This document shows, piece by piece, positions 15,742 through 64,000 of a stretch of DNA of 64,000 nucleotides. Each line of letters begins with the position of its first letter. Position 1 is the stretch's first letter. The DNA comes from Parabacteroides sp. Lineage in GTDB: Bacteria; Bacteroidota; Bacteroidia; Bacteroidales; Tannerellaceae. The DNA is taken from the NCBI GenBank assembly GCA_017481945.1, contig JAFUOJ010000015.1, positions 1 to 64,000 of the forward strand, written 5' to 3'. The position numbers were made by a program, and so were the translations under genes. Under the pieces are notes generated by a model. That model did no database searches and was not told where the DNA came from. It saw only the letters and a program-made list of their open reading frames with translations.

Positions 15742-15825
15742 TACGCAGGATGAGACTTGAACTCACACGCTGTTACCAGCACTACCCCCTCAAAGTAGCG
15801 TGTCTACCAATTCCACCACCTGCGC
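15742..15825 (-). tRNA. tRNA-Leu(GAG)
   Basis: 84 nt without encoded CCA. The acceptor GCGCAGG pairs with CCTGCGT (one G-T). The D region has TGGTGGAATTGGTAGACACG, and the anticodon stem-loop CTACT-TTGAGGG-GGTAG gives GAG. A long variable arm of the class II type is present, and the T loop contains TTCAAGT. It reads Leu CUC/CUU. Confidence 0.93.
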
Positions 15826-15833
15826 AAGAAGGG

Positions 15834-15915
15834 TGCCCAGAACAGGACTCGAACCTGCATGCCTCTCGACACACGCACCTGAAACGTGCGCGTCTACCAA
15901 TTCCGCCACCTGGGC
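15834..15915 (-). tRNA. tRNA-Leu(CAG)
   Basis: 82 nt, class II. Acceptor GCCCAGG pairs with TCTGGGC (one G-T). Anticodon arm CACGT-TTCAGGT-GCGTG gives CAG. T loop TTCGAGT. It lies 8 bp from tRNA-Leu(GAG), so the two are probably cotranscribed. Confidence 0.93.
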
Positions 15916-15953
15916 ATCTCAATACATTAAAAAAGCGGACTCATACCGCCTTG

Positions 15954-16026
15954 AGCGGAAGACGGGGCTCGAACCCGCGACCCTAACCTTGGCAAGGTTA
16001 TGCTCTACCAACTGAGCTACTTCCGC
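15954..16026 (-). tRNA. tRNA-Gly(GCC)
   Basis: 73 nt. Acceptor GCGGAAG/CTTCCGC. D arm AGCTCAGTTGGTAGAGC. Anticodon arm TAACC-TTGCCAA-GGTTA gives GCC. T arm GCGGG-TTCGAGC-CCCGT with one mismatch-free core. It is first in the three-tRNA cluster on this strand. Confidence 0.95.
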
Positions 16027-56050: not shown

Positions 56051-58501
56051 TTACCGGACTTTCCATTCGATGACGCCTCCGGACTCTCCTTTTTGGAGTT
56101 GGACAACCAGTTTCAGGCCGGTAGTCTTGACCGGAGTGAAGTCTACGGAGTTATATTGATCTTTTTGGCAACCGTACTCCCCTTTCGCTTCCACATCTTT
56201 CCAACGGTTTCCTACGCGATACTGAACTTTCCAGCTGGCAGGCACGCGATAGTTTCCGTCGTAGTGATCAAAGTCGAGCCAATAGACCTGTACGTTCTGA
56301 ACGGTTTCCGGACGGTCAAACTCATACTCAATCGCGTTTTCCGTTCCCTCTTCCAACCAGAAATACCAGTAGGGTTTGGACATATCGGCTGAACTCTTCG
56401 GATCCCACTGATCGTTTACCCCGTAACACCAATCGCGGCGCTCCTGAGCAATTCCATCTTTCTGAATGGGGGCACTGATAATGGTGTACGACTTTGCTCG
56501 TGAAGCAATAGTCGGTTCCGGTGTAGGTTTTGCATACTCTACAGAGGCAGGAATCCAGACAGTCATTTCGGCATTGCCTCGGTTGTTCCAAGTAGAGTAT
56601 GGAATCAGTTTTACCGGAACCTCTTTCTCAGAGATGGTACCAGTCGCCTTGTCTTGCTGAAGCTCTTTAGCGGTAGTGGTCAGTTCGACAATACCATTTA
56701 GTTTCTCTTTCTCAAATTGACTGCTGAAAGAGGCTGTTGCCGGAAGATATTTATTGAAAACATGCTTGTCGGGCATATCGGTTCCCTCCAAACAGTAAAC
56801 AATCGGTCCGCGTTCAACCGCTAACAGCCCTTTGTCGTCCTGTACTTTCTCATTTGCTTGGACATGACGTACCTCCATCGGCATACGTAGCTCAACAACA
56901 TCCCCCGGCTGCCATTCCTTTTCGATAGAGACATACCCTTGAACGGCTTTCCGAGATTGTTTTTTACCATTTACATAAAGTTCATACGGTGTATCTGACT
57001 TCTCGACATAAGTATAGAGGTCGCTACCGGGTACAGGAGCATTGCCGGTCCAAGCGGGAATACGTAAATGAAGTGCAAAGGTAGAAGAATGCTTCGGGGA
57101 GACCTTGATTTTGACATTGCCTTCCCAAGGATACTCGGTTTCCTGCTGAAGCGCTACGGTGTCAGTAGGCAAAGCGATCTGGCTGTTGCTACCAATGTAA
57201 AGATTGACATAAATACCATTGCTTTGAGTCGCATACATATACTTAGGAACGGAAGCCATGAAGCGGGTTACATTACCCGGACAGCAGGCACAACCAAACC
57301 AAGGAGCGCGCTCATGTTCTCCCATAGATTCCAAAGGATTATCATAGAAAAACTTATCGCCACTCAGGGAAACACCGGAAATAACGCCGTTGTAGAGGGC
57401 ACGTTCCAAGACGTCAATATATTTAGCCTCTCCGGTAGCTAAAAACATGCGTTGATTCCAATAGACATTGGAGATCGCAGCACAGGTCTCGCAGTAGGCA
57501 CTATGATTATGCAATTCATATTCGGGACCAAAGCCCTCTCCCTGTGCTCTTGAACCGATACCACCGGTGATATAAAGCTTTTTCGTCGCCATATTGTCCC
57601 AGATTCTACAGATAGCATGGAAATAGGCGGTATCTTGAGTCAAAGCAGCCACGTCAGCAACACCGGAATAGAGGTATCCGGCACGAACAGCATGACCAAC
57701 AATTTCGTCCTGCTGTAAAATAGGTTTATGATCTTGGCTATAGGCACTCAACTTGTGTCCGTCTGTGCCTCTACCGGTTTCATCCACGAAATACTTAGCC
57801 ATTGTCAAATATTTAGGGTCGTTGGTCACCTTATAAAGTTTTGCTAATCCCATCTCAATGATAGGATGGCCGGAGGGGACATGTTTTTGTCCCTCGTTGG
57901 GGCCGAAATCTTTGCAGATGAGGTCTGCATTTTTGATAGCAATATCTAACAGGCTACGTTTTCCCGTAGCTTGGTAATGAGCAACGGCTGCTTCATAGAG
58001 GTGACCGCTATTATAAAGTTCGTGACTATTGATTTTCTCCCAGCGGGAACTTCCCCACCAGCCTTTTAGGCGTTCACATCGGTTGGTAACACAAGTTGTC
58101 AGATAGCCGTCCGGTTCTTGGGCGGCACCTATTAAAGTAATAACGCTGTCCAAGTAAGCGTCTAACTGGGGGTCATATTGAACGGCTAAAGAATAGGAAG
58201 CTCCTTCAATGATCTTATACGGATCAGTATCATCAAAAGGGAAATCTCCCTTATGTTCCCCTTTCATCAGTCCACCAGCCAAGGCAAAGTTGTCAAAACG
58301 GCCATTGATTTCACATTGTTTGAAGGCGGAAGGGATAGACACGGTTCGATTGGTTTCGATACGAGGCGCCCAGAAGTGATCCGTCACATGTACTTCTGTA
58401 AATGGAACCTCAACAATAGGTTCTTGCGAAGAGTGAGAAACCGGACTACAGGCGTTCAACGTAGTCAGTATTCCTACACACAATACGTACTTTTTCACCA
58501 T
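56051..58501 (-). CDS. GH127 beta-L-arabinofuranosidase-family lipoprotein
   Basis: 816 residues. Lipoprotein signal MVKKYVLCVGILTTLNAC. The (alpha/alpha)6 barrel shows GYLTTCVTNR, HELYNSGHLYEAAVAHY, the zinc and nucleophile sites YCETCA (about residues 335-339) and GCACCPGN (about 403-409), which match the Glu-x-Cys and Cys-Cys set of characterised GH127 enzymes. The C-terminus is a beta-sandwich (SWKVQYRVGNRWKDVEAKGEYG, GVIEWKVR). It probably releases L-arabinose or a related sugar from plant or microbial glycans. Monocistronic in the window. Confidence 0.9.
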   Translation of the reverse strand: MVKKYVLCVGILTTLNACSPVSHSSQEPIVEVPFTEVHVTDHFWAPRIETNRTVSIPSAFKQCEINGRFDNFALAGGLMKGEHKGDFPFDDTDPYKIIEGASYSLAVQYDPQLDAYLDSVITLIGAAQEPDGYLTTCVTNRCERLKGWWGSSRWEKINSHELYNSGHLYEAAVAHYQATGKRSLLDIAIKNADLICKDFGPNEGQKHVPSGHPIIEMGLAKLYKVTNDPKYLTMAKYFVDETGRGTDGHKLSAYSQDHKPILQQDEIVGHAVRAGYLYSGVADVAALTQDTAYFHAICRIWDNMATKKLYITGGIGSRAQGEGFGPEYELHNHSAYCETCAAISNVYWNQRMFLATGEAKYIDVLERALYNGVISGVSLSGDKFFYDNPLESMGEHERAPWFGCACCPGNVTRFMASVPKYMYATQSNGIYVNLYIGSNSQIALPTDTVALQQETEYPWEGNVKIKVSPKHSSTFALHLRIPAWTGNAPVPGSDLYTYVEKSDTPYELYVNGKKQSRKAVQGYVSIEKEWQPGDVVELRMPMEVRHVQANEKVQDDKGLLAVERGPIVYCLEGTDMPDKHVFNKYLPATASFSSQFEKEKLNGIVELTTTAKELQQDKATGTISEKEVPVKLIPYSTWNNRGNAEMTVWIPASVEYAKPTPEPTIASRAKSYTIISAPIQKDGIAQERRDWCYGVNDQWDPKSSADMSKPYWYFWLEEGTENAIEYEFDRPETVQNVQVYWLDFDHYDGNYRVPASWKVQYRVGNRWKDVEAKGEYGCQKDQYNSVDFTPVKTTGLKLVVQLQKGESGGVIEWKVR

Positions 58502-58660
58502 AAGAGTTACATTTATATTGATATTATCAGGTCACAAAGGAAAGATTTTTTTGAGAGTTAGAAAAGAATTTGTACCGATTGAATGTCGGGAGATGAATAA
58601 AAAGTTGAACAGACTCCAGATTTTTTTACTACCTTCGTTGAAAATTCTCACAAAAACGCA

Positions 58661-59587
58661 ATGAACATACAACAATTAGAATACATTTTGGCTGTTGATA
58701 CCTATCGCCATTTTGCAAAGGCTGCTGAATACTGTCGAGTAACACAACCGACACTCAGCATGATGATTCAGAAATTAGAAGATGAATTAGGAGTCAAACT
58801 CTTCGATAGGAATACACAACCAATCACACCTACAGCTGCTGGTCGTAAAGTTATCGACCAAGCTCGGGTTGTACTCCATCAAGCCTCCTTAATCAAAGAC
58901 ATCGTAAATGAAGAGGAACAGTCACTGAAAGGGACTTTCCGGTTAGCAGTGTTGCCAACGATTGCTCCTTATCTACTCCCCCGCTTCTTCCAGCAGGTGT
59001 CAGGGAAATATCCGGAACTGGACATCCGTATCTTGGAAATGCAGACAGCTCCCACCATGAAAGCTTTAATGAATGGTGAAATCGACGCAGCCATCATTGC
59101 CAATCAGCCAACGGAAATGCAGCTGCAAGGAGATCTGTTGTTCTATGAACAATTCTTTGCTTATGTAGCACGCAATGAGAGTATCTTCAAGAAAGAATTG
59201 GTACGAACAGCAGACATCAGTGATGAACGTCTCTGGTTATTAGATGAAGGACATTGTTTCCGAGACCAGCTAATGCGTTTTTGTCAAATGGAACGGGTAA
59301 AACTACATCAAGCAGCTTACCGTTTAGGAAGTCTGGAAACTTTCATGCGTATGGTAGAAAGTGGAAACGGTATCACCTTCATTCCGGAGCTTGCGACTCA
59401 TCAATTAAGTGAAAAACAGAAAGAGTTAGTACGTCCTTTCGCAATACCTAAGCCGACCCGTGAGATTGTCTGGGTAACTCGCAAAGATTTTATCCGACAT
59501 AAGATTGCCGGAATCCTTATTGAGTGCATAAAAAATAGTGTTCCGAAGGAAATGCGAACCTTACAAGCGGGATTACGAGTGGTCTAA
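58661..59587 (+). CDS. oxyR: OxyR, peroxide-sensing LysR-type regulator
   Basis: 308 residues. LysR helix-turn-helix at residues 17-36 (HFAKAAEYCRVTQPTLSMMI). The substrate-binding-like domain contains LLDEGHCFRDQLMRFCQM with Cys199 and Cys208, the same numbers and spacing as the peroxide-oxidised disulfide pair of E. coli OxyR. It should activate catalase, Dps and thioredoxin genes upon H2O2. No target gene is adjacent; the aromatic operon follows with its own leader. Confidence 0.95.
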   Translation: MNIQQLEYILAVDTYRHFAKAAEYCRVTQPTLSMMIQKLEDELGVKLFDRNTQPITPTAAGRKVIDQARVVLHQASLIKDIVNEEEQSLKGTFRLAVLPTIAPYLLPRFFQQVSGKYPELDIRILEMQTAPTMKALMNGEIDAAIIANQPTEMQLQGDLLFYEQFFAYVARNESIFKKELVRTADISDERLWLLDEGHCFRDQLMRFCQMERVKLHQAAYRLGSLETFMRMVESGNGITFIPELATHQLSEKQKELVRPFAIPKPTREIVWVTRKDFIRHKIAGILIECIKNSVPKEMRTLQAGLRVV

Positions 59588-59663
59588 GCATACAAATGGA
59601 CTAAAAATACAGGTAGCTTAGAAAAAAATTATCACTTTTTGTTTGTAGTATCCAAAAAAGCGT

Positions 59664-59671
59664 TACTTTTG
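59664..59671 (+). promoter_or_regulatory. -7 box of the aromatic amino-acid operon
   Basis: TACTTTTG followed by TCGC. TTTG at 59642-59645 is 18 bp upstream and TTTG at 59638-59641 is 22 bp upstream, both near the -33 position. Transcription would start near 59677, 23 nt before the leader peptide ATG. Confidence 0.65.
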
Positions 59672-59699
59672 TCGCGTAATAAAAAACAATAGAGATTAA

Positions 59700-59774
59700 A
59701 TGAATCGATTTAGCTTTACATATTACTTTTATTACTTTTACTTTAGCAAGGTGAAGGCAGGAGTTTGTATGTAA
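59700..59774 (+). CDS. pheL: Phe/Tyr-rich leader peptide of the pheA attenuator
   Basis: 24 codons, ATG at 59700 and TAA at 59772-59774. Five Phe (codons 4, 6, 10, 13, 15) and five Tyr (codons 8, 9, 11, 12, 14) are packed within 12 codons: the core reads FSFTYYFYYFYF. The two amino acids are exactly the end products of the operon that follows. Ribosome stalling at these codons (59709-59744) is the expected sensor for charged tRNA-Phe and tRNA-Tyr. It is too short for usual gene calling. The symbol is by analogy to the enterobacterial leader, which is unrelated in sequence. Confidence 0.88.
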   Translation: MNRFSFTYYFYYFYFSKVKAGVCM

Positions 59775-59842
59775 AGCGTTGATAAATGAAACATGTATCA
59801 ATAAACAATATAAAGTCCTGCCAATTTCGGTAGGACTTTTTT
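59713..59842 (+). promoter_or_regulatory. Transcription attenuator of the aromatic amino-acid operon
   Basis: Three exclusive pairings are visible. Stem 1:2 joins GCTTTACATA (59713-59722) to TATGTAAAGC (59768-59777), a perfect 10 bp. The antiterminator joins GGCAGGA (59756-59762) to TCCTGCC (59816-59822). The terminator is AAAGTCCTGCC (59812-59822), loop AATTTC, GGTAGGACTTT (59829-59839) with one G-T, then TTTTTT. A ribosome stalled on the aromatic codons covers 59713-59722 and frees 59756-59762 to form the antiterminator; a ribosome at the stop codon covers it and lets the terminator form. Confidence 0.87.
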
Positions 59843-59893
59843 GTTACTAATCAAAAACGATTCAAAGAAAAGATAATATAAAAAGGAAAGTAG

Positions 59894-60739
59894 ATGAAAA
59901 GGAAAGTTGCAATCCAGGGAATAGCCGGAGCGTTTCACGATATAGCTGCCCGCAATTACTTTGAAGGGGATGAAGTAGAAATTATTCCTTGCATTACGTT
60001 TAAAGACGTGATTTCAGCTGTAAAAAGGGATCCATCAGTTTTGGGTATAATGGCTGTCGAAAATACAATTGCAGGTAGTTTGTTGCAAAATCATGAATTA
60101 ATTCGCGAAAGTGGTTTGCAGATTGTTGGTGAATATAAATTACGTATCTCTCACTCACTGGTTGCACTCCCCGGAACAAATATCCATGATATTAAGGAAG
60201 TCAATTCTCACCCTATTGCATTAATGCAATGTACCGAATTCTTAGATACCTTGCCTAATGCAAAAGTCGTTGAGAAAGATGATACTGCCCTCAGTGCTCT
60301 TTGGATTTCAGAAAACCAACTGAAAGGACATGCAGCTATTTGCGGTAAGTTGGCTGCTGAAATTTATCACATGGAAGTATTGGCAGAAGGTATTGAAACA
60401 AACAAACGCAATTTCACTCGCTTCGTTATCATAGCAGATCGTTGGATTGCGGATGAAATGCTTAAAGGAGAAGATAAAAACAAAGCCTCTTTGGTTTTCG
60501 CTGTACCTCATACCTCTGGAAGCCTTTCCAAAGTTCTCTCAGTCCTTTCTTTTTACGATATGAATCTTTCTAAAATACAGTCATTGCCTATCGTCGGACG
60601 CGAATGGGAATATCTATTTTATGTGAACCTGAATTTCACAGATTACCTCCGCTACAAGCAGGCATTAGACGCAATCAGACCACTAACAAAAGACTTAAAA
60701 ATATTAGGTGAATATGCAGAAGGAAGACAAAGTATATAA
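59894..60739 (+). CDS. pheA: Prephenate dehydratase, monofunctional
   Basis: 281 residues without a chorismate mutase domain. PDT core: VAIQGIAGAFHDIAARNYF, GIMAVENTIAGSLLQNHELI, KLRISHSLVALPG, HPIALMQC and NKRNFTRFVII (the conserved TRF). ACT domain from about residue 195 (SLVFAVPHTSGSLSKVLSVLSFYDMNLSKIQSLPI) for feedback by phenylalanine. It decarboxylates and dehydrates prephenate to phenylpyruvate. First structural gene after the attenuator; its last 26 bp overlap the aminotransferase. Confidence 0.95.
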   Translation: MKRKVAIQGIAGAFHDIAARNYFEGDEVEIIPCITFKDVISAVKRDPSVLGIMAVENTIAGSLLQNHELIRESGLQIVGEYKLRISHSLVALPGTNIHDIKEVNSHPIALMQCTEFLDTLPNAKVVEKDDTALSALWISENQLKGHAAICGKLAAEIYHMEVLAEGIETNKRNFTRFVIIADRWIADEMLKGEDKNKASLVFAVPHTSGSLSKVLSVLSFYDMNLSKIQSLPIVGREWEYLFYVNLNFTDYLRYKQALDAIRPLTKDLKILGEYAEGRQSI

Positions 60740-61898
60740 TATCACACCCGCAAATCGTGTAAACAGTGTGCAAGAATACTACTTCTCCAGAAAACTGAAA
60801 GAAGTAGCCGAAATGAATGCTGCAGGCAAAAACGTTATCAGTTTAGGAATCGGAAGCCCAGATCTTCCCCCTTCTGAACAGACTATCGCAACTCTTTGCG
60901 AACATGCACAGCAGCCCAACGAACATGGTTACCAACCGTATGTCGGTATTCCGGAACTTCGCAAAGGTTTCTCTGATTGGTATAAAACATGGTATCATGT
61001 AGACCTTGACCCCAAAACAGAAATTCAACCTTTGATCGGTTCAAAAGAAGGAATCCTGCATATCTCTTTGGCTTTCTTAAACCCGGGTGACGGAGTATTG
61101 GTTCCCAATCCGGGATATCCGACCTACAGTTCTGTCAGTAAACTGGTCGAAGCAAACTTGATTAGCTACGAGTTAAAAGAGGAACTAAATTGGCAACCCG
61201 ATTTCGAAGAATTGGAAAAGATGGATTTATCAAACGTCAAGTTAATGTGGACCAACTATCCCAATATGCCAACCGGTGCTAACGCCAGCATGGAACTATA
61301 TGAGAAATTAGTTGCTTTCGGAAAGAAGCATAATATTATTATCTGTAATGATAATCCTTACAGCTTCATCTTGAATGAACATCCATTGAGTATTCTTTCT
61401 GTTCCAGGGGCAAAAGACATCTGTATTGAAATGAACTCAATGAGTAAAGCCCATAATATGCCCGGTTGGCGTATGGCAATGCTTGCCTCTAATGCACAAT
61501 TCGTACAGTGGATCTTGAAAGTAAAAAGCAATATCGATTCTGGTCAATTCAAACCTATGCAATATGCGGCTGTCGAAGCCTTATCTGCACCTAAAGAGTG
61601 GTATGACAATATGAACCGCGTTTACCGTAGTCGTCGTGATTTAGCAGGACAAATTATGGATGCGTTAGGTTGTAAATATGACAAAAATCAAGTCGGTATG
61701 TTCCTTTGGGGAAAGATTCCGGCAGAGGCAGCAGGCAGTGAGGCTGTCGCAGACAAAGTTTTATACGAAGCAAATGTTTTTCTGACACCCGGATTTATCT
61801 TCGGTAGTCGCGGAGATCGTTACATCCGTATCTCCCTTTGCTGCAAAAACGAAGCATTACAAGAGGCTTTAAACCGAATTAAACAACTTAAGAAATAA
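60714..61898 (+). CDS. Class I/II aminotransferase, probable aromatic or prephenate aminotransferase
   Basis: 394 residues from the ATG at 60714 (a GTG lies 6 bp upstream). PLP site NSMSKAHNMPGWRMAM with Schiff-base Lys, ISLGIGSPDLPPSEQT at the start, and TNYPNMPTGANAS with the conserved Asn-Pro pair, and YIRISLCCKNEALQEAL with the substrate carboxylate-binding Arg. In this operon it should transaminate phenylpyruvate and 4-hydroxyphenylpyruvate, or prephenate itself to arogenate. Related folds include LL-diaminopimelate aminotransferase. Overlap of 26 bp with pheA implies coupled translation. Confidence 0.9.
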   Translation: MQKEDKVYNITPANRVNSVQEYYFSRKLKEVAEMNAAGKNVISLGIGSPDLPPSEQTIATLCEHAQQPNEHGYQPYVGIPELRKGFSDWYKTWYHVDLDPKTEIQPLIGSKEGILHISLAFLNPGDGVLVPNPGYPTYSSVSKLVEANLISYELKEELNWQPDFEELEKMDLSNVKLMWTNYPNMPTGANASMELYEKLVAFGKKHNIIICNDNPYSFILNEHPLSILSVPGAKDICIEMNSMSKAHNMPGWRMAMLASNAQFVQWILKVKSNIDSGQFKPMQYAAVEALSAPKEWYDNMNRVYRSRRDLAGQIMDALGCKYDKNQVGMFLWGKIPAEAAGSEAVADKVLYEANVFLTPGFIFGSRGDRYIRISLCCKNEALQEALNRIKQLKK

Positions 61899-61957
61899 CA
61901 CATCAGTGTTCAATTGATATCGAAACTTTTATATTGACAAATTAAAAAATCATCTAT

Positions 61958-63025
61958 ATGGAAATGCAATTAGAATCAATCTTACTTCCTGGCGTAGACG
62001 CTCAGCGTCCAGTCGTTATCGCCGGTCCGTGTAGTGCGGAAACAGAAGAACAGGTAATGGAAACAGCCAAAGATTTGGCTAACAAAGGCATTAAAATATT
62101 CCGTGCCGGTATCTGGAAACCCCGTACAAAACCAGGTGGATTCGAAGGAGTAGGTGTTGAAGGTTTAGCTTGGTTGAAACGAGTTCAAAAAGAAACTGGA
62201 ATGTATGTTTCTACAGAAGTAGCAACTAAAGACCATGTCTTTGAAGCTTTAAAAGCAGGAGTAGACATTCTATGGATTGGTGCACGTACCAGCGCAAACC
62301 CATTTGCAGTTCAGGAAATTGCAGATGCTTTGAAAGGGGTAGATATTCCTGTATTGATCAAAAACCCGGTTAACCCTGATTTGGAATTGTGGATTGGAGC
62401 AATCCAACGTATCTACAACGCAGGTATCCGTCGTATCGGGGTAATCCATCGCGGTTTCAGCTCTTACGACAAAAAGATGTATCGCAACTCACCGTTATGG
62501 CATATTCCTATTGAATTACGTCGTCGTATTCCTAATATGCCTATCTTCTGTGACCCAAGTCACATCGGTGGTAAACGCGAATTGGTAGCTCCACTTTGTC
62601 AGCAGGCAATGGACTTAAGTTTCGATGGTTTGATTGTTGAATCACACTGTAATCCGGATTGTGCATGGAGTGACGCTTCTCAGCAAGTAACTCCTGACGT
62701 GTTAGATTACGTATTGAACCTTTTGGTGATCCGCGATTCTACACAGACAACAGAAAACTTATCTGAACTACGTCGCCAGATTGACTGTATAGACGAACAA
62801 CTGTTGGAATTATTGGCAAAGCGTATGCGTATCTCTCGCGAAATCGGTATCTACAAAAAAGAGCACAATATGCCGATTTTACAATCTCCACGCTACAGTG
62901 AAATCTTGGAAAAACGCTCTAACATGGGTGAACAAATGGATTTGAACACTGAATTTGTCAAAGAAATCTTGAAAAATATTCATGAAGAATCTGTTCGTCA
63001 ACAGATGATTATCATGAACGAATAA
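61958..63025 (+). CDS. aroF: DAHP synthase fused to C-terminal chorismate mutase
   Basis: 355 residues. Residues 1-260 form a type I-beta DAHP synthase barrel: VVIAGPCSAETEEQVMETA, FRAGIWKPRTKPGGFEGVG, VLIKNPVNPDLELW, FCDPSHIGGKR and IVESHCNPDCAWSDASQQ. Residues 265-355 are an AroQ-type chorismate mutase helix bundle (LSELRRQIDCIDEQLLELLAKRMRISREIGIYKKEH). The order is the reverse of the mutase-first fusion in Bacillus. It supplies both the entry step of the shikimate pathway and prephenate for its neighbours, and can be feedback-controlled through the mutase domain. Confidence 0.95.
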   Translation: MEMQLESILLPGVDAQRPVVIAGPCSAETEEQVMETAKDLANKGIKIFRAGIWKPRTKPGGFEGVGVEGLAWLKRVQKETGMYVSTEVATKDHVFEALKAGVDILWIGARTSANPFAVQEIADALKGVDIPVLIKNPVNPDLELWIGAIQRIYNAGIRRIGVIHRGFSSYDKKMYRNSPLWHIPIELRRRIPNMPIFCDPSHIGGKRELVAPLCQQAMDLSFDGLIVESHCNPDCAWSDASQQVTPDVLDYVLNLLVIRDSTQTTENLSELRRQIDCIDEQLLELLAKRMRISREIGIYKKEHNMPILQSPRYSEILEKRSNMGEQMDLNTEFVKEILKNIHEESVRQQMIIMNE

Positions 63026-63036
63026 TATCAACCGAC

Positions 63037-63090
63037 AAAGGACAATTAAGAACCTCCAATCTTCCCGTTTTTAATTGTCCTTTTTCTTTT
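63037..63090 (+). terminator. Hairpin with T run between aroF and tyrA
   Basis: Perfect 13-bp arms AAAGGACAATTAA (63037-63049) and TTAATTGTCCTTT (63071-63083), 21-nt loop, then TTCTTTT. It looks like an intrinsic terminator inside the operon, 16 bp before the tyrA ATG, and could lower or regulate tyrA expression. No consensus promoter for tyrA alone was found. Confidence 0.7.
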
Positions 63091-63105
63091 CAATAGTCAA
63101 TTAAG

Positions 63106-63879
63106 ATGAAAATACTTATTCTTGGTGCAGGAAAGATGGGCTCCTTCTTCACCGACCTATTGAGTTTCGACCATGAGGTAGCCGTATTAGAAAGTGACCC
63201 TAAACGCATGCGTTTTATCTACAACGCACTTCGTTTACAAAAGCCTGAAGAAGTCGCTGAATTCGAACCTGAGCTGGTTATTAATTGCGTAACGTTAAGT
63301 TATACAATCGAAGCTTTTAAAAGTATTATCCCCTACTTGCCGAAGACTTGTATTCTTTCGGATATTGCTTCCGTTAAAACACATCTGCAAGAGTTTTACG
63401 AGGCATCAGGGTTCCGCTACGTATCTACCCACCCGATGTTCGGACCGACATTTGCCAATTTGGGACAATTGGAAAAAGAAAATACGATCATCATTGCCGA
63501 AGGTGACCATTTAGGTAAAATCTTCTTCAAAGATGTTTATGCCAGCTTACGTTTGCATATCTGTGAATATACGTTCGAAGAACATGATAAAGTAGTTGCA
63601 TACTCTTTAGGAATTCCTTTTGCTTCAACAATGGTTTTTGCTGCCACAATGAAACATCAGGACGCTCCCGGTACGACCTTCAAACGTCACATGAAAATAG
63701 CTCGTGGGCTTTTGTCGGAAGATGATTACCTTTTGACTGAAATTCTTTTCAATCCACGCACACCACGCCAGATTGAACGCATACAAGAGGAATTGAATAT
63801 CTTGCAAGAGTTAATCCAAAACAAAGACTCAGAAGGTATGAAAGAGTATCTTACTAAAATCCGTAAGAACATCGAATAA
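63106..63879 (+). CDS. tyrA: Prephenate/arogenate dehydrogenase
   Basis: 257 residues. NAD motif ILILGAGKMGSFFTDLL with ESDPKR after strand 2 (favouring NAD). Catalytic-site motifs VSTHPMFGPTF (conserved His and Pro-Met) and the helix AYSLGIPFASTMVFAAT are present. It is shorter than E. coli TyrA and has no mutase domain. It converts prephenate to 4-hydroxyphenylpyruvate, or arogenate to tyrosine. Last gene of the operon, closed by the terminator at 63901. Confidence 0.93.
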   Translation: MKILILGAGKMGSFFTDLLSFDHEVAVLESDPKRMRFIYNALRLQKPEEVAEFEPELVINCVTLSYTIEAFKSIIPYLPKTCILSDIASVKTHLQEFYEASGFRYVSTHPMFGPTFANLGQLEKENTIIIAEGDHLGKIFFKDVYASLRLHICEYTFEEHDKVVAYSLGIPFASTMVFAATMKHQDAPGTTFKRHMKIARGLLSEDDYLLTEILFNPRTPRQIERIQEELNILQELIQNKDSEGMKEYLTKIRKNIE

Positions 63880-63900
63880 AAGATACATCAATCCATATAG

Positions 63901-63938
63901 CAAGCCGTTGTTCTATTTTAGGCAACGGCTTGTTTCTT
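63901..63938. terminator. Intrinsic terminator after tyrA
   Basis: CAAGCCGTTG (63901-63910) and CAACGGCTTG (63923-63932), 12-nt loop, then TTTCTTT on the plus strand. It may also serve the minus-strand gene that ends at 63938. Confidence 0.85.
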
Positions 63939-64000
63939 TAAGTAAACAACCGCTTATACTCCTGTTCAAAATTGGGAGTAAAAACACCTTTTCCCAAATT
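63938..64000 (-). CDS. C-terminal end of an unidentified minus-strand gene, cut by the window edge
   Basis: The minus-strand frame from the right edge reads 20 codons ending in KRLFT and a TAA at 63938-63940. The convergent terminator next to it supports a real gene end. Too short to identify. Confidence 0.4.
   Translation of the reverse strand, partial: NLGKGVFTPNFEQEYKRLFT

Follow-up and report, generated by a model that had tools for sequence, protein, structure and literature searches.

The 64,000-nucleotide stretch of Parabacteroides DNA analysed here (the window) carries near its end an aromatic amino-acid operon on the plus strand. It begins with pheA, encoding prephenate dehydratase (59894..60739; Pfam PF00800, PDT, E 2e-53), followed by a class I/II aminotransferase gene (60708..61898; PF00155, Aminotran_1_2), with a tentative GTG start, as listed, that overlaps pheA. 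A gene for a DAHP synthase - chorismate mutase fusion (DAHPS/CM; 61958..63025; PF00793, DAHP_synth_1, and PF01817, CM_2) and tyrA, encoding prephenate dehydrogenase (63106..63879; PF02153, PDH_N), complete the operon. Upstream, the ORF list gives a lysR-type gene on the same strand (58661..59587), which ends about 110 nt ahead of the short ORF described below. Elsewhere in the window, three consecutive tRNA genes lie at 15742-16026 on the minus strand.

In front of pheA we found a leader-peptide ORF of 24 codons, MNRFSFTYYFYYFYFSKVKAGVCM (59700..59774, plus strand; stop codon 59772-59774), which has Phe- and Tyr-rich counterparts in relatives. Its putative sensing codons, five Phe and five Tyr, fall within 12 codons (59709..59744), and the final eight of them are consecutive (59721-59744). 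When upstream regions were shuffled, an ORF with at least seven F/Y/W in 12 codons arose in 8/485 and one with at least nine in none, so that the ten aromatic codons of the window leader exceed any of the shuffled regions. Bacteroidota promoters have the pattern TTTG...TAnnTTTG at -33/-7, and a probable promoter of this pattern (59642..59671, plus strand) consists of TTTG at 59642-59645 and TACTTTTG at 59664-59671. In 69/69 leaders the TAnnTTTG box was present no more than 80 nt ahead of the start codon, compared with 61/1380 shuffles, a count that included the window and left out 4 of 73 leaders with too little sequence. Between the leader ORF and pheA, the first gene of the operon, lies an intrinsic terminator (strands 3:4; 59812..59842, plus strand), read from the sequence and from covariation in relatives, with a stem of 11 pairs (59812-59839) and a T run (59837-59842). 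Terminator-like sites are no rarer in shuffled DNA (four found in 58500-64000 against 3.9 expected), so the weight of this terminator rests on its conservation. By rules demanding an ATG start, at most 40 codons, enrichment of one residue class and a terminator behind, the window holds one such unit only.

Two alternative stems can be drawn on the same strand. Strands 1 and 2 form a predicted protector hairpin (1:2; 59713..59777), with weaker covariation than the other stems; its outer stem, 59713-59722/59768-59777, is a perfect 10 bp, and in its inner part nucleotides 59748-59757 pair with the final aromatic codons. In the antiterminator, strand 2 (59756..59770) can instead pair with strand 3 (59808..59822), which is common to antiterminator and terminator, as indicated by the pairing and by covariation of seven core pairs. 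This core, 59756-59762/59816-59822, is a perfect 7 bp, and past one mismatch seven more pairs, one of them G-U, extend it (59764-59770/59808-59814). A small hairpin is predicted in the antiterminator loop (59778..59802). An earlier note on this DNA had listed the operon as pheA, aminotransferase, DAHP synthase-mutase and tyrA, and Pfam agrees on all four; the short ORF that it placed before pheA, with ten aromatic codons in twelve, its terminator with T run and its 10-bp stem were all found where it put them. Its antiterminator stem is also there, although it had listed only the core and not the seven pairs beyond the mismatch.

The predicted folding of this region (59690-59850) reached -49 kcal/mol, against -26.0 +/- 3.6 in 200 shuffles (z = -6.4), none of which was as good. 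For a ribosome placed on the last Phe codon, which masks strand 1, the minimum predicted fold of the RNA left free from 59756 (59756-59850) was the antiterminator (-28.4 kcal/mol), and the terminator was gone. For a ribosome at the stop codon, 59787-59850 was predicted to fold into the terminator.

We then compared 80 Bacteroidales loci, the best 80 of 582 retrieved by a PheA search; the closest named relatives among the matches listed were Parabacteroides, with PheA 79-90% identical. A Phe/Tyr leader was present in 72 of these 80 pheA loci. Seven of the 80 were leaderless (L036, L040, L041, L046, L065, L073 and L079), and the eighth locus outside this count (L034) has 46 nt of upstream sequence, too short to judge. 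A tblastn search for tyrA behind pheA, within the sequence available, gave no match in the seven leaderless loci, of which L065 and L079 lie on contigs that end too early. Although L036 and L079 satisfied the automatic leader rule, inspection showed that they have no start codon there and that one runs into pheA, and both were excluded from the alignment of 73 rows. Across the 73 leaders, the final eight codons of the run were Phe or Tyr in 553/584 cases (298 Phe, 255 Tyr), and the conserved elements of the alignment were the ORF, strand 2 and the terminator.

Pairing in the 73 sequences was analysed stem by stem, with the reservation that kinship among sequences inflates the significance of every shuffle test of covariation given here. 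In the seven-pair 2:3 core 97.8% of cells were paired and 76 showed a change on both sides, compared with at most 45.7% paired when the partner was slid. Its covariation score was 0.395 against 0.215 in shuffles (0/500 reached it), with two of five measures (pairs with two-sided change, and pair types) not above shuffles, and its stability beat all 20 shuffles in 69/73 loci. The two strands have changed in concert between genera: GGCAGGA/TCCTGCC in Parabacteroides, GACAGGA/TCCTGTC in Dysgonomonas and AGCGGGA/TCCCGCT in Bacteroides and Phocaeicola. The terminator stem 3:4 was paired in 96.5% of cells, 56 of them changed on both sides, and scored 0.389 against 0.276 (0/500), with all five measures above shuffles. 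The 1:2 stem is strong in the window, but its figures across relatives were weaker (76.7% of cells paired, 111 two-sided changes): on two of the five measures 33 and 319 of the 500 shuffles did as well, which may in part come from alignment slip, and the stem beat all 20 shuffles in 26/73 loci only. An RNAalifold consensus contained the terminator only, which is what one would expect of two alternative structures with strand 3 in common. Antiterminator and terminator exclude each other, and the covariation indicates that both have been kept.

The position of strand 2 relative to the aromatic run was also conserved. Strand 2 starts 10-13 nt past the last aromatic codon in 62/73 loci and at least 9 nt past it in 71/73. 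With the leading edge of a stalled ribosome placed from the size of its footprint, 10-13 nt marks the stretch that a ribosome stalled on the last aromatic codon would leave free. Complementarity of strand 2 to its own terminator exceeded the 95th percentile of shuffles in 71/73 loci, and its median was 21, compared with 16.5 for the terminators of other loci. In the window, and in 47/73 loci overall, a ribosome positioned on the leader stop codon would mask the beginning of strand 2; in the other 26, either 1:2 would have to form again or timing would have to suffice.

These features suggest the following course of events. Transcription would start just past 59671 and the RNA would carry the leader, 2:3, 3:4 and then the operon. 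Under scarcity of charged tRNA-Phe or tRNA-Tyr, the ribosome would stall on the run at 59721-59744 with its leading edge just before 59756, leaving strand 2 unmasked to pair with strand 3, and RNA polymerase would enter the operon. When both amino acids are plentiful, the ribosome would reach the stop codon and cover strand 2, or alternatively it would leave and 1:2 would form; in either case 3:4 would terminate the transcript near 59842. Phe and Tyr codons alternate right to the end of the run, from which we infer that lack of either amino acid would be enough (an OR logic). The mechanism needs close coupling of ribosome and polymerase, which to our knowledge is not established for Bacteroidota.

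To relate leader codons to operon content, we used 302 loci with a pheA profile match, 299 of which, including the window, have at least 160 nt upstream; the 299 contain one known duplicate (L362 = L175) and possibly overlaps between collections. L034, L243 and L300 were left out with less than 160 nt, and L247 lacks a full pheA match. A leader under the strict rule was found in 252/299 loci. An aminotransferase, DAHPS/CM or tyrA gene stands behind pheA in 260 loci, and 244 of these have a strict leader; every one of the 244 contains Tyr codons, at least two in 243. The downstream sequence of 19 loci was too short or unclassed. Another 19 distinct loci have a lone pheA, meaning that no gene was identified in the roughly 1.7 kb that follow it (with 1.5 to 6.5 kb of sequence available); L362 was omitted from this count. 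Under a relaxed rule, 8/19 lone pheA genes have a leader, with no Tyr codon in five and one Tyr codon in three. Operon leaders under the same rule lack Tyr in 1/250 and have none or one in 2/250, the 250 including L036, probably a false leader. The difference in leaders with no Tyr gave a Fisher P of 3.6e-8, which is overstated, as the eight lone-pheA leaders come from four family labels (f69, f79, f89 and f149) and represent about four independent events. The other 11 lone pheA loci are leaderless, including six of eight in the genus of G347. These counts indicate that the codon content of the leader follows the content of the operon. In six lone-pheA leaders (L161, L163, L249, L323, L329 and L342) the aromatic run consists of Phe only.

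We conclude that the element in the window is very probably a ribosome-mediated transcription attenuator of the trp/his/pheA type that senses Phe and Tyr together. The earlier note had proposed translation-coupled attenuation and had suggested looking upstream of pheA across Bacteroidales for the aromatic ORF and for compensatory changes in all three stems. It had named loss of the aromatic codons or stems in relatives as a refutation, and the comparison gave the opposite. The conserved leaders, the covariation of 2:3 and 3:4 and the predicted fold switch are in keeping with that proposal; the expected support from 1:2 came out weaker. The link between Tyr codons and operon content supports its further claim that both amino acids are sensed together. 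That link also bears on a different explanation, in which the nascent aromatic peptide would itself stall the ribosome, either by binding free Phe or Tyr or because an elongation factor is lacking, with no sensing of codons. A hydrophobic, aromatic run might well exert an effect inside the exit tunnel, and the last codons, F-Y-F, are strongly conserved. However, the order of F and Y differs greatly among leaders, as do the residues beyond the run, the choice between F and Y tracks operon content as codon sensing but not arrest predicts, and induction by a free amino acid would be the wrong direction for a biosynthetic operon, which makes peptide arrest quite improbable.

Another possibility is that a T-box, a riboswitch or a bound protein works the same terminator, the ORF being secondary. 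The leader is long enough to permit this, but the conserved elements fall in the ORF, strand 2 and the terminator, and neither the T-box nor a known riboswitch family is among the 12 Rfam matches up to E = 10 in 59600-59900, on which basis both were rejected; we regard such a mechanism as very unlikely. The best of these matches, over its full length, was Phe_leader (RF01859; E 0.035 for 301 bases), the family of the enterobacterial pheA leader, which scored 25.0 bits against a gathering cut-off of 55, and 17.4 bits on the opposite strand, so that the element does not belong to this family; at the gathering threshold the Rfam scan gave no match in the window.

It is hardly credible that the hairpin merely ends the transcript of the lysR-type gene as its 3' terminator and that the ORF is a chance product of AT-rich DNA. 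That gene does end shortly before the ORF on the same strand, but the promoter box, present upstream of every leader scored, stands between them, which led us to reject a terminator of the upstream gene; strand 2, inside the ORF, co-varies with the terminator arm; and the rarity of dense aromatic ORFs in shuffled regions led us to reject a chance ORF. Equally far-fetched is a functional aromatic microprotein with incidental regulation, for although the peptide is well conserved within Parabacteroides, its length ranges from 16 to 33 residues in the 73 loci (taking the nearest start codon), most residues outside the run vary and the conserved part coincides with the RNA strands.

The DAHPS/CM gene was also sought elsewhere in the genomes with a lone pheA. 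In nine split genomes (G337, G347, G426, G456, G462, G718, G417, G623 and G595) the sequence reaches back past the start of the DAHPS/tyrA operon, and in 9/9 that operon is preceded by a leader with both Phe and Tyr codons and by a terminator. The lone pheA of four of them (G426, G462, G718 and G595) has no leader. In G657 no leader was found in the 175 nt ahead of tyrA, and the contigs of G583 and G357 break off at the DAHPS/tyrA operon. A second DAHPS/CM copy in G417 and G623 is without a Phe+Tyr leader, as are more distant DAHPS-like matches, and a Tyr-only leader was found in none of the split-operon genomes examined. In G337 (locus L228) a divergent tyrA lies directly before DAHPS/CM, behind the Phe+Tyr leader; with the tyrA of the window as query it gave no match at E <= 0.001.

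We next looked at how widely such leaders occur, using kinship labels of the search tool for class and order and inferring the class name Bacteroidia. In a draw across the phylum pheA was found in 258/296 genomes, 69 of which were examined (the 29 best-scoring and 40 hand-picked from the listing), an aromatic leader being counted at seven or more F/Y/W in 12 codons. Such a leader was present in 2/2 genomes of the same order, 42/44 elsewhere in the class and 5/23 outside it. Within the order of the window it was present in 114/128 loci examined, drawn from 49/119 and 180/393 genomes with pheA.

Some regions carry more than one leader. Scanning 301 upstream regions (the 299 pheA regions and two DAHPS/tyrA operons), we found two separate aromatic ORFs (ATG start, at least six F/Y/W in 12) in 33. 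Each ORF has its own terminator in 24/301, two of these being the DAHPS/tyrA operons, compared with 0/900 distal-shuffled controls. A TAnnTTTG box occurs at most 60 nt upstream of the first leader in 18 of the 24 tandem regions and between the paired leaders in none. In 22/24 first units and 24/24 second units, strand 2 had a better fit to the terminator of its own unit than to that of its neighbour (medians 17.75 and 18 for its own, 12 and 11 for the other). Because strand 2 prefers its own terminator, most tandem regions look like two complete switches in series. Two starvation-sensitive terminators in series should make the response steeper. Examples are L262, L260, L261, L154, L288, L343, L344, L337, L348, L355, L356, L357, L361, L377 (reverse strand) and L378, and in several second leaders YFM follows the aromatic run.

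The enterobacterial pheA leader (pheL) is rich in Phe, lacks Tyr and precedes pheA alone. The leader described here follows the same logic, with a leader peptide, alternative stems and a terminator before pheA, but its Phe and Tyr codons alternate and its operon includes tyrA and DAHPS/CM. The E. coli thr and ilv leaders contain codons for several amino acids, and they resemble the present one in that a single leader holds codons for more than one operon-linked amino acid, whereas the amino acids, the phylum and the RNA differ. We know of no tested example of ribosome-mediated attenuation that senses tyrosine. The pheA, thr and ilv operons are named as attenuated in E. coli in a portion of an earlier report (PMC1183508). 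In the same phylum as the window, leader-peptide attenuation was noted in Flavobacterium psychrophilum (PMC9723704); passages of that paper name no aromatic operon, its main text does not contain the word phenylalanine, and its Table S7 may list a pheA case. A transcriptome of B. thetaiotaomicron, according to part of its text, has leader-peptide-like ORFs in long 5' UTRs (PMC7366714). Tandem attenuators have a parallel in Salmonella mgtCBR, where excerpts describe two leader ORFs with attenuation on one transcript that respond to two different signals, ATP and proline-tRNA (PMC3641672), whereas the aromatic tandems appear to repeat the same kind of sensor. In the literature searched, mostly titles and the beginnings of abstracts, we recognised no Phe/Tyr leader of Bacteroidota pheA, which Lopatovskaya et al. 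2010 (Mol Biol 44:128) may predict; nor did the search find the codon-operon link or the tandem form, part of which that 2010 study might hold.

On balance we favour a broader reading, in which the class of the window (Bacteroidia) has an old, conserved attenuator family that works as a Phe-or-Tyr gate, whose codons have been re-tuned with operon content and whose switch has been doubled in many lineages. Tyr codons would have been lost with a lone pheA and kept on the split-off DAHPS/tyrA operon. If true, this would bring classical attenuation into a major phylum of the gut, where it would control aromatic amino-acid synthesis throughout a class, with one leader reading two amino acids at once, and would mean that transcription and translation in Bacteroidota are coupled closely enough for attenuation. 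The split operons would offer a natural experiment on how leader codons evolve after operon content changes, and the tandem copies one on serial attenuators and dose response.

A scan for runs of five His codons matched many places, and in the 12 loci read (one of them, L389, in the genome of the window) none had a His leader followed by a terminator. Among the 244 strict operon leaders, 50 also contain a Trp codon (for example L086, L089, L093, L098, L101, L106, L113, L119, L131, L233 and L236). DAHP synthase feeds Trp synthesis as well.
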